Below, in pieces: positions 2,973 through 7,114 of a DNA stretch of 48,551 nucleotides. The notes under the pieces are model-generated. The model did no database searches, was not told the DNA's origin, and saw nothing but the letters and a program-made list of their open reading frames with translations. The stretch comes from Melioribacteraceae bacterium (GTDB lineage Bacteria > Bacteroidota > Ignavibacteria > Ignavibacteriales > Melioribacteraceae): contig WGCV01000025.1 in the NCBI GenBank assembly GCA_015493615.1, positions 1-48,551 on the forward strand. Reading direction: 5' to 3'. Each line of letters opens with the position of its first letter. Within the stretch, counting starts at the first letter, position 1. The position numbers were made by a program, and so were the translations under genes.

Positions 2973-5966
2973 CTAATCAACATTGGGCTTAACAATTACA
3001 CCGATGTTTTCTTGCCCCTGGACTTTGATGGTTATCGGCTCTGAAGTTACGCAATGAGTAACATATTTATATTCTTCAATTTTTTTCTGTTTTCTGAGCC
3101 ACTCCCAATCGATGAAACCATTGCCGCGACCGCTGTCCACGGTAAAATATCCTACTTTGAGCGAAGTCAAATTATGGAAAAAATGCGAACCTTGAGACGG
3201 CTCAACGCTGATATCATCCAAATTAGTTTCTATTATTGTTTTTGCCCCCGATATTTGTTCCCATGAAACCGGTATTCCGAGCCAAGGATCCAAGGTGCCG
3301 ATTCTTCCCAAACCGATTAAAAGGTACTTCCTTTTTTTTCTGATTAACCGAGCGTTAATTTTAGCGAGTTCCTTCGCGACATCATAACTTTTACTCCGAT
3401 CAAATTTTAAGGGGTCAACAAATACAATATCGCAAATATCTTTTATGATTCCGTTCCCGAGAGCTTGCTCGCTTTTACATATCAAATTCTCCTTTGTGTA
3501 GTGAGCAACTTCCAGTTCTTCCTTCTCAAAATCAACGACAAGAGGACGCATTTGAAGAAGCGCAAATTGTTTTTTTACTCCGGGCGGGAGCGAAACGTTA
3601 ACCGCAAATTCAATTTCAACGGGAGAACTCATTCCCCAAGTTCCGATTTCAAGTATAGTATCAAGTATTTCGGCTACGGGAAATGTGTTGTGTTTCAGCA
3701 TTGTCGCCAGGGAAAAAATCCTGACTCCTGGGCGGGAAGTTCCGTCGTAAATCACTTCGTTTTCAAATGAATAAGTTGAAGCCACATAATTTAGCGTCCC
3801 ATCTTTTTCGGCGTCTTCAATAGGATAACTCCGTACGGAATCCAAATTTTCAAAGGAAAAAACATCTTTATTCCCGTTTAGGTCCAATGCAAAAAAGTTT
3901 TTCTGTTTGTTGTCAAGGATACTTGTAATGTCCGCGGAGAAAGAATTTTTATTAGGATGTTCGGGACAAAAAGTAAATGGATTGCATCCGTCCACAATTA
4001 TTTTCCCTAAACCGAATCCAACCGTGGCGATTTTATTGCAGTTGTTGTAGGGAAAAGTCGGGTAAAAATTGTAGGATTTCGCGACGCCGGAAAAATCGGG
4101 ATAAAATCGGTCGCCATGCATTTGCCCGACGACTTCCTGAATAATAATCGCCATCTTTTCCTCTTCGAGACGATATGAGGTTACTCCCATATAGTCCCTC
4201 GCGCCTGAACGAAAAACAGACGCATAAATTTTCTTTATCATATTCAAGGTTCTAATCATTCTGATATTGATGTCGGGGTTGTTGTTAGGAAGCATAAAAG
4301 TTTCGTAAACGCCGGCAAACGGATGCCCTTGCGAGTCCTCAAGCAGACTTGACGAGCGTACGGCAAGGGGAGCGGAAGTTATTTCGAGGAAGGCGAATAA
4401 ATCGTTAATGGCTTCTTCCGGGAATTTCGGCGCAGCATAAAAACGAGCGTAAAGTTCCTCGTCCGATTTACACTTGAGAGCAAAATCAAGAAGATTGTTC
4501 ATCTCAAGAAACCGGTCGAAAATATCGGTGGCAATTATCAGCGCTGAAGGAATAAAAATTTCAACATCGTCAAATTCTTCCCAAATATCAAAATTGTTCA
4601 GCAGACGGTTCATAAAACCTATGCCCCGCGCTTTGCCGCCGAGAGAGCCGCTTCCGATTCTAGCTATCGTAGATTTTACTTCAAACAGATCGCGGTTGAA
4701 ATCAAGTATAATTCCTCGTTGACGCGAGTGCCGGAAATTTCTGATATTATTTACAAGCGTTTCCCTTAAATCTTCGACCGAAGTGAAGTCGCTGACCCGC
4801 TTAGGTTTCAGAAGTTCGGCGAGCCAGAATTCCGTGCGCGCTTTAAGCCAGTTGGAAAAGTGATTTCGCAATCCGTGATATAAAAGGGATTCGCCCGGAA
4901 CGGTTTTAATCTTTTCTTCAAGCTCAATAAGATTGGACGCTCGGTCGATTTCATTTCCGTTTTCATCGCGAAAAATAAAGTCCCCGAAGCTGAACTGTTC
5001 ATGCATAAAATTTCTTAAATCGTTCAGAAGGGAAGGAGAATTTTTCCAGATAAAAGCCACATTCAGCTCTTCGGCTTTTTTTCTGTTTTCTTCTTTAGAG
5101 GATTGAAGGAGAAACGGAATATCGGGATGAAGTTTTTTTACTTTTTTTGCGAGACGCAAACCGGCGTTCGGATCTTTTTCACCTTTGCGGGAAAAGTTTA
5201 TATCGGAAATAATTCCGAGCAGAGTATTCTCATATTTTTTAATGTATTTTGTCGCCTCTTCGTAACTGCTTGCCAAGAGAATTTTCGGACGCGCGCGCAT
5301 TCTAAGAAAACGATGAGAAAGATTAATTCCCTCCGAAAGAAGCGATTGCGCCTGCAGAAGAAGCTCGGTGTAAATCATCGGAAGGTAAGAGGAGTAAAAG
5401 CGGATACTGTCTTCAATCAAAATTATGGACTGAATTCCGACCAGGTTTGTATCATGCTCAACATTTAATTTATCTTCCATATATTTTATTATTCCGATAA
5501 TAACCTTGTAGTCGCCGAGCCAGTAAAAAACCCTTTCGTAATATTTAATGTCGGGATGTTCGAGGAGTTCAACCATTTCGTTATTGTCGTAGCCGAGTAA
5601 AACAACGGGAGTATTTATCCCCGCGTTCTTAACCCGTTTGGCAAATTTGCTTGCGTGAATCTCATTAATATGCTGCGTGGCAATGATTAAATCAATCTGC
5701 TTGTTTTTCTTTGCGAAATTAATCGCCGCTTTACCGGACGAATATTGAATCAGTTCCGGCGCGTCGCTGAGGTTCAACCCGAGATACTCCTGACGAAGTA
5801 ATTCATAAAGTCTGCCGTCTTCCTCGAAGATGTAGGAATCGTATAAACTCGAGACGAGCAGAATTTTTCTTATTCTGTGTTGCATTAAGTTGTGAAAATC
5901 TTGGAATTTAGCGAAACGGTTGGTAAATCTGGCTTTTTCTTTCAGAATGTTTTCAATATTAATCAT
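2973..5966 (-). CDS. Double receiver domain / PEP-pyruvate-binding (PPDK N-terminal-like) fusion protein
   Basis: 997 aa, predicted cytoplasmic (no signal or membrane segment). Residues about 34-165 form a degenerate receiver-like domain without the acidic pocket. Residues about 180-320 form a second receiver with the expected acidic pair E185-D186, candidate phospho-acceptor D255, Ser289/290 and K308. From about 432 it matches the ATP-grasp PEP/pyruvate-binding domain of pyruvate phosphate dikinase/PEP synthase: IGSGSLGGKARGIGF (437-451), PLAVRSSSLLED (533-544), GVYETF, IIIQEVVGQ. The swivelling phospho-His domain and the PEP-binding barrel of true PPDK are absent, so it is unlikely to be a complete dikinase. 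A role as a signal-regulated phosphotransfer or ATP-grasp enzyme is inference. It is divergent from trpS across a 167-bp AT-rich gap. Confidence 0.8.
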   Translation of the reverse strand: MINIENILKEKARFTNRFAKFQDFHNLMQHRIRKILLVSSLYDSYIFEEDGRLYELLRQEYLGLNLSDAPELIQYSSGKAAINFAKKNKQIDLIIATQHINEIHASKFAKRVKNAGINTPVVLLGYDNNEMVELLEHPDIKYYERVFYWLGDYKVIIGIIKYMEDKLNVEHDTNLVGIQSIILIEDSIRFYSSYLPMIYTELLLQAQSLLSEGINLSHRFLRMRARPKILLASSYEEATKYIKKYENTLLGIISDINFSRKGEKDPNAGLRLAKKVKKLHPDIPFLLQSSKEENRKKAEELNVAFIWKNSPSLLNDLRNFMHEQFSFGDFIFRDENGNEIDRASNLIELEEKIKTVPGESLLYHGLRNHFSNWLKARTEFWLAELLKPKRVSDFTSVEDLRETLVNNIRNFRHSRQRGIILDFNRDLFEVKSTIARIGSGSLGGKARGIGFMNRLLNNFDIWEEFDDVEIFIPSALIIATDIFDRFLEMNNLLDFALKCKSDEELYARFYAAPKFPEEAINDLFAFLEITSAPLAVRSSSLLEDSQGHPFAGVYETFMLPNNNPDINIRMIRTLNMIKKIYASVFRSGARDYMGVTSYRLEEEKMAIIIQEVVGQMHGDRFYPDFSGVAKSYNFYPTFPYNNCNKIATVGFGLGKIIVDGCNPFTFCPEHPNKNSFSADITSILDNKQKNFFALDLNGNKDVFSFENLDSVRSYPIEDAEKDGTLNYVASTYSFENEVIYDGTSRPGVRIFSLATMLKHNTFPVAEILDTILEIGTWGMSSPVEIEFAVNVSLPPGVKKQFALLQMRPLVVDFEKEELEVAHYTKENLICKSEQALGNGIIKDICDIVFVDPLKFDRSKSYDVAKELAKINARLIRKKRKYLLIGLGRIGTLDPWLGIPVSWEQISGAKTIIETNLDDISVEPSQGSHFFHNLTSLKVGYFTVDSGRGNGFIDWEWLRKQKKIEEYKYVTHCVTSEPITIKVQGQENIGVIVKPNVD

Positions 5967-6133
5967 AATCCGACCTGAAATTCAAACAATTTTTTTATTT
6001 AATTTTATAATTTATAATAAAATTAAATTTCTTTCCGAAATGATTTAGGAGAACGTCAAAAGAGAAAAGATAAAAGTAAATAAAAATATCAGAAATTCAT
6101 TATCTTTAAAATCTTTAAAAACGGGAATTATTT

Positions 6134-7114
6134 ATGGCGAAAAAACGAATTTTAAGCGGTATGCGTCCGACCGGAAAATTGCATCTCGGGCATTACGTCG
6201 GGGCGCTTGAAAATTGGATAAAATTACAGAACGAGTATGAAAGTTTTCATCTTGTTGCAGATTATCATGTGCTGACTACTAATCTCAACACGGATGAAAT
6301 TTACAACAACACTTTAGAGATGGTCATGGATTGGTTGGCGGTCGGGATTAACCCGGAGACAACGCCGATGTTTCGTCAATCGCAGATAAAAGAACACGCC
6401 GAACTTTTCTTAATCTTTTCCATGCTTGTTACAAAAGCAAGGTTGGAGAGAAATCCAACGCTTAAGGACCAGATTCGAGATTTAAATATCGAGAACGTGA
6501 TATACGGGCATCTCGGCTATCCGGTGCTGCAGAGCGCAGACATACTCCTTTACAAAGGGGAAAAAGTTCCCGTCGGCGAAGACCAAGTTCCTCACGTGGA
6601 AATCACTCGCGAGATTGCGCGCAAGTTTAATAATCAATACGGACTTGTTTTCCCGGAGCCGGAACCATTACTGACAAAGTTTTCTCGTCTGCCGGGGCTT
6701 GACGGCGGCTCGAAAATGAGCAAATCGCTGAACAATACGATATTAATTTCCGAAACGCCGGAAGACGTTCAGAAGAAGCTGCGAAAAGCGGTAACCGACC
6801 CGCAGAAGATAAGACGAAACGACCCGGGGCATCCCGAAGTCTGCACAATTTTTACTTATCACAAAAGATTTAATCCCGAAGAAGTTCCGGAAATTGAGAA
6901 AAGCTGCCGCAGCGGGGAGCTTGGATGCGTTGATTGTAAGCTGAAATGTACCGCGAAGATAAATGAGTTTTTAGATCCGATAAGAGAAAAAAGATCGGTT
7001 TACGAAAACGATAAAAATAAAGTTCTAGAGATTCTGCTTGACGGAGAGAGAAAGGCATCGGAAGTTGCAAAAGAAACTATGTCTGAAGTTCATGAAAAAA
7101 TGAAGCTCGGTTAA
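6134..7114 (+). CDS. trpS: Tryptophanyl-tRNA synthetase
   Basis: Class I aminoacyl-tRNA synthetase that charges tRNA-Trp; 326 aa, the normal bacterial length. The HIGH box is HLGH (residues 17-20) in GMRPTGKLHLGHYVGAL, and the KMSKS loop is at 194-198. Notable is a cysteine cluster C237-x20-C258-x6-C265-x2-C268, plus C272, in the C-terminal anticodon-binding half. It closely resembles the C-x22-C-x6-C-x2-C cluster of Thermotoga TrpRS, which holds an iron-sulfur centre. First gene of a compact plus-strand run; its TAA overlaps the scpA ATG by one base, implying co-transcription. The start follows GGGA at a suitable distance. Confidence 0.96.
   Translation: MAKKRILSGMRPTGKLHLGHYVGALENWIKLQNEYESFHLVADYHVLTTNLNTDEIYNNTLEMVMDWLAVGINPETTPMFRQSQIKEHAELFLIFSMLVTKARLERNPTLKDQIRDLNIENVIYGHLGYPVLQSADILLYKGEKVPVGEDQVPHVEITREIARKFNNQYGLVFPEPEPLLTKFSRLPGLDGGSKMSKSLNNTILISETPEDVQKKLRKAVTDPQKIRRNDPGHPEVCTIFTYHKRFNPEEVPEIEKSCRSGELGCVDCKLKCTAKINEFLDPIREKRSVYENDKNKVLEILLDGERKASEVAKETMSEVHEKMKLG

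Follow-up and report, generated by a model that had tools for sequence, protein, structure and literature searches.

What does a protein do that joins two receiver domains to the ATP-grasp domain of pyruvate phosphate dikinase (PPDK), and on what does it act? The question is raised by a reading frame on contig WGCV01000025.1 of a Melioribacteraceae bacterium (GCA_015493615.1), whose whole 48,551-nucleotide stretch is called the window here. An initial annotation proposed that its product could couple two-component phosphorylation to phosphotransfer on an unknown partner. Genomic context now names that partner, very probably, as glutamate dehydrogenase (GDH), a naming that does not extend to the role of phosphate acceptor. 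Because genes of this architecture, called class A, mostly adjoin a GDH gene across relatives, class A is probably a dedicated GDH switch. GDH is an ammonia-fixing enzyme and provides an ammonia entry into metabolism in Bacteroidota, gut species included; to our knowledge, the control of its activity in Bacteroidota is poorly explained.

Domain order and conserved residues

The class A protein consists of receiver 1, receiver 2, a linker, a PPDK_N ATP-grasp domain and a C-terminal domain, in that order. Its features in the window are as follows.

2973..5966, minus strand: whole open reading frame of the class A protein, 997 aa from ATG; orthologs are 51-60% identical over nearly full length
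5472..5870, minus strand: receiver 1, aa ~33-165, degenerate, with Thr97 at the phospho-acceptor position (hhalign to NarL receivers; sub-threshold in Pfam)
4989..5441, minus strand: receiver 2, aa ~176-326, complete by alignment, with E185, D186, D255, S289 and K308 (hhalign and 101-row conservation)
5202..5204, minus strand: codon of D255, the predicted phospho-acceptor (D in 101 of 101 rows)
4737..4946, minus strand: linker, aa 341-410, weakly DUF5752-like (Pfam 22.8 bits, sub-threshold against a cut-off of 23)
3504..4646, minus strand: PPDK_N ATP-grasp domain, aa 441-821 (Pfam PF01326; K445, E784, E786, Q805 and R807 conserved)
2976..3503, minus strand: C-terminal domain, aa ~822-997, common to three classes (unmatched in Pfam and among PDB sequences, and without a usable fold match)
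3183..3185, minus strand: codon of H928 in an SQG[ST]HFF motif, a candidate catalytic or phosphorylated residue suggested by conservation

A Pfam scan of the window protein (E up to 1) places a Response_reg match at aa 71-129, on receiver 1, with 21.3 bits against a cut-off of 30.2, and does not list receiver 2. Receiver 2 is assigned instead by aligning its profile with that of six NarL-type receivers (single-comparison E 6.7e-8 at an hhalign probability of 94.6), an alignment in which D255 falls on the phospho-acceptor Asp, S289 on the switch Ser and K308 on the Lys. Aligned with NarL-type receivers (probability 94.0), receiver 1 has T97 at its acceptor site. Conservation was counted over 101 rows of class A architecture, which include the window's own: D255 and K308 are present in 101/101, E185 and D186 in 100/101 each (one D and one N, respectively), and position 289 is S in 99 rows and T in 2, while no row has an Asp at position 96 or 97 of receiver 1. 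The annotation's reading of one degenerate and one complete receiver (E185, D186, D255, K308) is thus upheld, and D255, on whose conservation that reading hinged, is invariant. The stretch from E185/D186 to D255 spans 69 residues, and typical receivers have a shorter one; receiver 2 is atypical but complete. Since receiver 2 keeps D255, the whole protein may still be phosphorylated. An AlphaFold2 model of the whole protein from a four-row alignment had a mean pLDDT of 38.6 and was discarded as a fold; its strands and helices at ~228-324 agree with a receiver. In the linker, H364 and R377 are conserved in 101/101 class A rows.

The PPDK_N domain scores 105.7 bits in Pfam against a cut-off of 27 and is active-looking in sequence: K445 occurs in 101/101 class A rows, E784, E786 and Q805 in 99/101 each (2 gaps), and R807 in 98/101 (1 K, 2 gaps), and these residues align with the K, D, E, Q and R of the genome's own PPDK-like protein. 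Neither the PEP-utilizers domain (PF00391) nor the PPDK C-terminal barrel gives a Pfam match in the window protein (E up to 1), and there is no Pfam match C-terminal of residue 821. Receivers fused to a PPDK N-terminal-like domain lacking the swivelling His and the barrel, as the annotation had it, are hence confirmed by Pfam (PPDK_N only) and hhalign. What had been overlooked is that the ATP-grasp domain is followed by a further conserved domain at the C-terminus, unclassified and carrying a conserved His. The earlier interpretation is in this sense partly supported, by the receiver signature, the active-looking ATP-grasp domain and the missing swivelling His, and is incomplete at the C-terminus.

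Within this C-terminal domain, H928 is found in 99/101 class A rows, the other two being gaps, and, across 38 rows drawn from the three classes, it is invariant together with GxGRxG, LG, E, SxGxHFF and Y positions. A PDB sequence search with the C-terminal profile returned nothing significant (best E 0.15). A model from five rows reached a pLDDT of 50.1 and a pTM of 0.59, and Foldseek against the PDB with this low-confidence model gave 56 matches, the best at E 0.78. A hidden phospho-His domain finds no support in the sequence of this region, since hhalign gives a probability of 0.1 when it is compared with 19 PF00391 domains taken from relatives; the region may still be an analogue of such a domain. 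A PDB sequence search with the whole window protein was likewise without significant matches (best E 0.076), and among Pfam, NCBIfam and PDB sequences no characterised family was found of which the protein would be a minor variant.

Association with glutamate dehydrogenase

Class A occurs in 48/58 sampled genomes of the genus, family and order, the window genome included, and so is not a chance reading frame. Named orthologs over 97-99% of the length are found in Parabacteroides, Phocaeicola and Prevotella, and the only annotated named record is labelled PEP/pyruvate-binding protein. No relatives on viral contigs were confirmed. Two sister classes, B and C, share the C-terminal domain; one lacks receivers and the other has a GAF-like N-terminus. 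Class B comprises three genes (L067, L073 and L074). Excluded from it are L026, a piece of a class A gene at the end of a contig, L122 and L123, which together make up one divided class A gene, and L040 and L095, both cut copies of gene L074.

A GDH gene lies within 1 kb of 71/101 distinct class A proteins (the window's own is among those counted): upstream on the same strand in 48, upstream on the opposite strand in 9, downstream on the opposite strand in 6 and downstream on the same strand in 8. Because the orientations differ, the link must have been kept or rebuilt through rearrangement. In the first set, a same-strand GDH was within 900 bp in 45/57 class A, 43 of the 45 upstream. Most sampled Ignavibacteria loci have GDH beside class A, and the adjacency is still seen in named Bacteroidales, where identity has fallen to 39-41%. 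For instance, gdhA of Parabacteroides distasonis is divergent and beside the class A gene, with a second GDH three genes beyond, and in Phocaeicola massiliensis GDH is divergent from the class A gene at 222 bp. In two Bacteroidaceae-like genomes (L117 and L118) class A is directly downstream of gdhA and convergent with it. Elsewhere class A copies adjoin two different GDHs in tandem clusters, and one class A/GDH cluster (L060) also contains an ammonium transporter. A histidine kinase/NarL-type regulator pair stands between two class A copies in 5/20 fetched loci, identified by Pfam HisKA_3 and GerE for the L060 pair and by BLAST cluster for the others.

The association is also specific for GDH type. 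Where a GDH lies within 2 kb, the nearest one is the 428-aa type in 12/12 class B/C rows (class B represented by L067 and L073) versus 0/75 class A rows; the comparison covers 75 different GDH genes for class A and 10 for class B/C, because B and C share one GDH in two operons. On the class A tree, taking the 53 proteins whose GDH gene lies upstream on the same strand, GDH subtype changes 5 times versus a shuffled mean of 18.2, and 0/200 shuffles are as low. Among 58 related genomes, 47 have both class A and family-I GDH, 1 has one alone, 1 the other alone and 9 neither (Fisher p 9e-9, uncorrected for relatedness). As a weak negative control, GDH was in the short flanks of 0/30 loci of relatives' PF00391 proteins.

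The link is not universal. No GDH lies within 1 kb of 30/101 class A rows, many with only ~1.5 kb of flank read, and in the Bacteroidaceae-like family such proximity is seen in 16/31 rows only. GDH is absent within 8 kb of the Prevotella ortholog, within ~3 kb of the distant copy L124 and from the stretch read for 5/17 class C rows (L056, L128-L131); for the class A copy split across L122/L123 the nearest GDH is 8.5 kb off. Among Bacteroidaceae-like genomes that lack class A, 12/13 still have GDH; GDH can thus live without class A, and a strict dependence of GDH on class A in this family is rejected.

In the window, the class A gene is divergent from trpS and GDH is not adjacent. The contig carries no GDH, and the 48 HATPase_c matches in the genome all lie elsewhere, so the annotation was right, as far as tested, in placing the kinase and acceptor outside the window. 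The genome's family-I gdhA is on another contig with no class A gene near. A PF00391 search of the genome gives two matches, a 595-aa frame resembling enzyme I in its size and motif and a 935-aa PPDK-like frame, and no stand-alone phospho-His domain. Of the genomic partners suggested at the outset, a kinase did appear beside homologs, in the kinase/NarL pairs, and the phospho-His domain did not in this genome.

A candidate switch and its alternatives

The genomic, co-occurrence and type-specific association ties class A strongly to GDH. We infer GDH as the direct target, post-translational control, and D255 as the input. On balance it is probable that class A is a two-component-gated, ATP-using PPDK_N/C-terminal module acting on GDH. 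A histidine kinase, unlinked in the window genome, would phosphorylate D255 of receiver 2, with receiver 1 confined to a structural or dimerising role. This phosphorylation would change the ATP-grasp module, which would bind ATP and, with the C-terminal domain, activate or modify family-I GDH, such that ammonia assimilation would track a nitrogen signal after translation. A bolder version is doubtful: the protein would be a protein kinase of the ATP-grasp type gated by its receivers, with the H928 domain replacing the PPDK swivelling His and passing ATP phosphate to GDH, the three sensor variants (receivers, none, GAF-like) serving their own GDH types.

Known PPDK_N relatives are mostly small-molecule enzymes, and the best NCBIfam matches of the window protein (PigC, PEP synthase models and RedH) are weak, all far under their own cut-offs; some loci also have aminotransferase and histidine-biosynthesis genes as neighbours. 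The module might accordingly phosphorylate or ligate a small nitrogen-metabolism compound (glutamate, 2-oxoglutarate or a derivative) under two-component control and be merely co-inherited with GDH. We consider this unlikely, since the regulator class tracks GDH type, a shared metabolite offers no ready explanation for the tandem clusters with two different GDHs, and the protein lacks the barrel with which PEP synthase/PPDK binds its substrate. With neither a phosphohistidine domain nor a recognised acceptor, the ATP-grasp domain might alternatively gauge ATP/AMP or a metabolite and control GDH simply by binding it, acting as chaperone or inhibitor/activator; retention of the catalytic-type residues (Lys, the acidic pair, Gln, Arg) in at least 98/101 rows would be unusual for a pure binder, and such a non-catalytic sensor is quite improbable. 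Very improbable indeed is a divergent PEP synthase/PPDK that relies on a separate phospho-His protein, for example enzyme I or HPr: PPDK_N homology and the enzyme I-like and PPDK-like frames in the genome speak for it, and the missing barrel and His domain, a C-terminal domain that hhalign cannot align to PF00391 and GDH as the recurring neighbour speak against it.

Class A is a concrete candidate for GDH control, also in gut members of the Bacteroidales (Parabacteroides and Phocaeicola among them), and one testable with two genes in E. coli. Should GDH or the C-terminal domain be phosphorylated, this would be new chemistry from an ATP-grasp domain without a His domain and an unclassified C-terminal domain. 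A receiver-gated kinase, if true, would add a new type of two-component output and name the gene behind a 1996 observation in Bacteroides.

Relation to known systems

Class A shares with PPDK and PEP synthase (PF01326, PF00391 and barrel) the ATP-grasp PPDK_N domain with catalytic-type residues, but instead of the swivelling domain and PEP/pyruvate barrel it has two receivers and the unclassified C-terminal domain. The fusion of REC to PPDK_N is likewise shared with an architecture already named 'Bacteroides-like' and found in three Heimdallarchaeota, whose description, in the part available, gives no function, C-terminal domain or GDH link. Aspartate-less receivers are stated in PMC4395418 to be highly associated with pyruvate phosphate dikinase outputs; receiver 1 of class A likewise lacks the acceptor Asp, whereas receiver 2 retains D255. 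Among the open-access papers listed, nothing was found tying a REC-PPDK protein to GDH.

According to its title, a study of Bacteroides thetaiotaomicron attributes an effect on GDH activity to one or more trans-acting genes located downstream of gdhA (Baggio and Morrison, 1996, cited in PMC4539542). The class A gene may be this trans-acting gene; most class A genes are close to GDH, as counted above, and the window copy is not. In B. thetaiotaomicron, gdhA is presumably BT_1970. BT_1971 is called a catalase in two papers; if both hold, the regulator may not immediately follow gdhA in this species, which neither supports nor excludes the link to the 1996 gene. In L117 and L118, class A likewise lies downstream of gdhA. 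A 3-kb downstream segment was reportedly needed for activity in E. coli, and the class A gene is likewise ~3 kb in size.

Domain architecture and sister classes

What the analysis shows for the class A family is its architecture, its conservation and its association with glutamate dehydrogenase (GDH, encoded by gdhA); the family is real, conserved and under-described. Among the relatives returned, the nearest one with a name is a MAG of the Melioribacteraceae (Ignavibacteria), at 95-99% identity in two pieces. The window, which takes up all of contig C25 of a 3.15-Mb draft genome, carries one class A gene by ORF reading:

2973-5966, (-) strand: class A ORF, 997 aa

The encoded protein is composed of receiver 1 (residues ~33-165), receiver 2 (~176-326), a conserved linker, PPDK_N (441-821) and a C-terminal domain (822-997). 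One receiver is degenerate and one complete, as the initial annotation had proposed: the first has Thr97 in the phospho-acceptor place, and in the second E185, D186, D255, S289 and K308 are all present. Conservation was read from 101 class A rows including the window protein, each a different gene and two of them short (492 and 636 aa), which were left from 172 HMM matches after removal of identical proteins (leaving 126) and the setting apart of 25 sequences of other classes or cut pieces. D255, on whose conservation the initial reading depended, is Asp in 101/101 rows; S/T289 and K308 are likewise found in 101/101, and E185 and D186 in 100/101 each. Class A also retains the ATP-grasp residues matching those of the genome's PPDK-like protein, and its position E784 is Asp in that protein and in three class C rows. 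The REC-PPDK pairing has already been termed a 'Bacteroides-like combination', in a passage that gives no function for it (PMC5847659), and aspartate-less receivers have been associated with PPDK outputs, again in a passage without a function for them (PMC4395418).

The initial annotation was right to list receivers and PPDK_N but overlooked the 176-residue domain that follows. These last 176 residues are common to class A and to two sister classes, B and C. Class B (three genes, in L067, L073 and L074) encodes proteins of ~580 aa in which the receivers are absent; class C proteins are mostly 1010-1066 aa (two shorter members, 776 and 913 aa), with an N-terminus that is weakly GAF-like in the one protein tested. 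Across 38 rows from the three classes, the invariant positions of the C-terminal domain are N, L, GxGRxG, LG, E, SxGxHFF and Y. The domain matched no Pfam family of note, and gave no match in a PDB sequence search, and profile comparison revealed no resemblance to the phospho-His domain of PPDK. Because it is conserved in a domain without a known family match, H928 is a candidate catalytic residue, picked out by conservation only.

One class C relative (L126:4843-7581, (-) strand; PPDK_N and C-terminal domain) adjoins GDH and carries an NTP_transf_2 nucleotidyltransferase domain near its C-terminus. This domain type is used by the nitrogen regulators GlnD/GlnE.

GDH as a genomic neighbor

The link between class A and GDH is strong as an association. 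GDH was one recurring neighbor family, present in 17 of 20 neighborhoods, which were hand-chosen (the window among them, and several because they contain copies in tandem or genes of class B or C), and was identified by Pfam ELFV_dehydrog in four examples. In a first set, a same-strand GDH lay within 900 bp of 45/57 class A proteins, 43 of these GDHs being upstream. In the enlarged set, GDH was found within 1 kb on either strand for 71/101 (16/31 rows in the Bacteroidaceae-like family versus 55/70 elsewhere), and some misses may be artefactual because many loci have only ~1.5 kb of flank. Distant full-length members, retrieved by profile search from other families of the phylum, lie directly by GDH in L072 (39% identity to the window protein), L116, L117, L118, L119 and L120 and one gene away from it in L121; L124 has no GDH neighbor within ~3 kb, and the L122/L123 copy has none within 8 kb. 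In P. distasonis, a divergent NADP-specific GDH adjoins the class A gene, annotated 'PEP/pyruvate-binding domain-containing protein', and a second GDH lies three genes beyond. GDH is 222 bp from the class A gene of P. massiliensis and was not found within 8 kb of that of Prevotella sp. oral taxon 299; neither record is annotated at the locus.

For class C, a script counted GDH within 1 kb in 8/17 rows, and the flanks read around L056 and L128-L131 held none. On contig C10 of the window's genome, a 428-aa GDH is followed after 373 bp by that genome's class C gene. The gene order is GDH-B-C in L067 and L073, and in L074 the class B gene belongs to a larger cluster holding both GDH types.

Several other features of these loci were observed. 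At 2973-7114, the window's class A gene is divergent from trpS and not beside gdhA, an order identical in the MAG locus L037; downstream lies a 651-aa ORF (498-2453, (-) strand) with no Pfam match at 1e-5. In L135 (5939-8947, (+) strand), a class A gene by GDH reads as two ORFs (636 and 343 aa), owing to a sequencing error or a break in the frame, and was kept in pieces. In L034, L035, L038 and L066, a gene for a class I/II aminotransferase comes after the GDH-class A pair (PF00155 in L066; the rest by BLAST to that copy). Loci L062, L064, L067, L074 and L133 have histidine-biosynthesis genes close to GDH clusters of class A or of class B/C (Pfam identified hisG in L067 and hisD in L062, and BLAST clustering the others). 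Two PLSDB 'plasmid' records, NZ_OY725790.1 (valine-tRNA ligase and ruvC) and OY726056.1 (a malic-enzyme-like gene), bear housekeeping genes and look like chromosome pieces (L196, L197); NC_022111.1 is a 1.77-Mb record.

Co-occurrence and GDH subtype

Co-occurrence was scored in 58 genomes of the genus, family and order, own included, at cut-offs of at least 50% identity for class A and at least 65% for family-I GDH. Both were present in 47 genomes, class A alone in one (G004, 85% complete), GDH alone in one (G043) and neither in nine spread over seven genera; the Fisher p of 9e-9 overstates the evidence because the genomes are kin. When only genomes with a completeness of 90% or more (49) are counted, the corresponding figures are 40/0/1/8. 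The Bacteroidaceae-like family, in which 88/101 genomes carry class A, gave the opposite result: 12 of the 13 genomes without it retain GDH (64-80% identity). GDH was present in all 23 of the 88 class-A-bearing genomes that were checked. As a control, 30 loci from 20 genomes were taken in which an enzyme I-like or PPDK-like frame encodes a PF00391 protein, and GDH was found in none of them, a weak comparison because the flanks beyond the gene are short.

When the nearest GDH within 2 kb was typed by best match to six references, class A was paired with the 453-type (29), the 446-type (20), Bacteroidia types (19, plus two named records) and the 414-aa type (5), and classes B and C with the 428-aa type in 12/12 rows, resting on 10 GDH genes. 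A quick maximum-likelihood tree was made for 53 class A proteins that have GDH upstream on the same strand, no more than 2 kb away (13/50 inner branches open). On it, GDH subtype required 5 changes against a shuffled mean of 18.2 (0/200 shuffles as low), a clustering that near-copies favor. By these counts, paralogs tend to keep their GDH subtype, with a few switches.

Proposed role and candidate kinase

In the proposed mechanism, phosphorylation of D255 would be the input signal, the class A protein would use ATP, and GDH would be its direct target. Direct transcriptional control is unlikely because Pfam lists no DNA-binding domain in the window protein. In B. thetaiotaomicron, trans-acting gene(s) downstream of gdhA have been described as affecting GDH activity (Baggio and Morrison, 1996, as cited in PMC4539542). 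The class A gene (~3 kb) of L117 and L118 sits directly downstream of one gdhA; that this and the 1996 gene are the same is a lead and not a result. By what the 1996 work reportedly found, the class A protein would be an activator of GDH.

The partner kinase is, as first noted, absent from the window, and 48 HATPase_c matches lie elsewhere in the genome. The best lead for the kinase comes from five tandem clusters (L060-L064), where a histidine kinase and a NarL-type regulator stand between two GDH/class A pairs; the L060 cluster, whose genes were assigned by Pfam, also holds an ammonium transporter.
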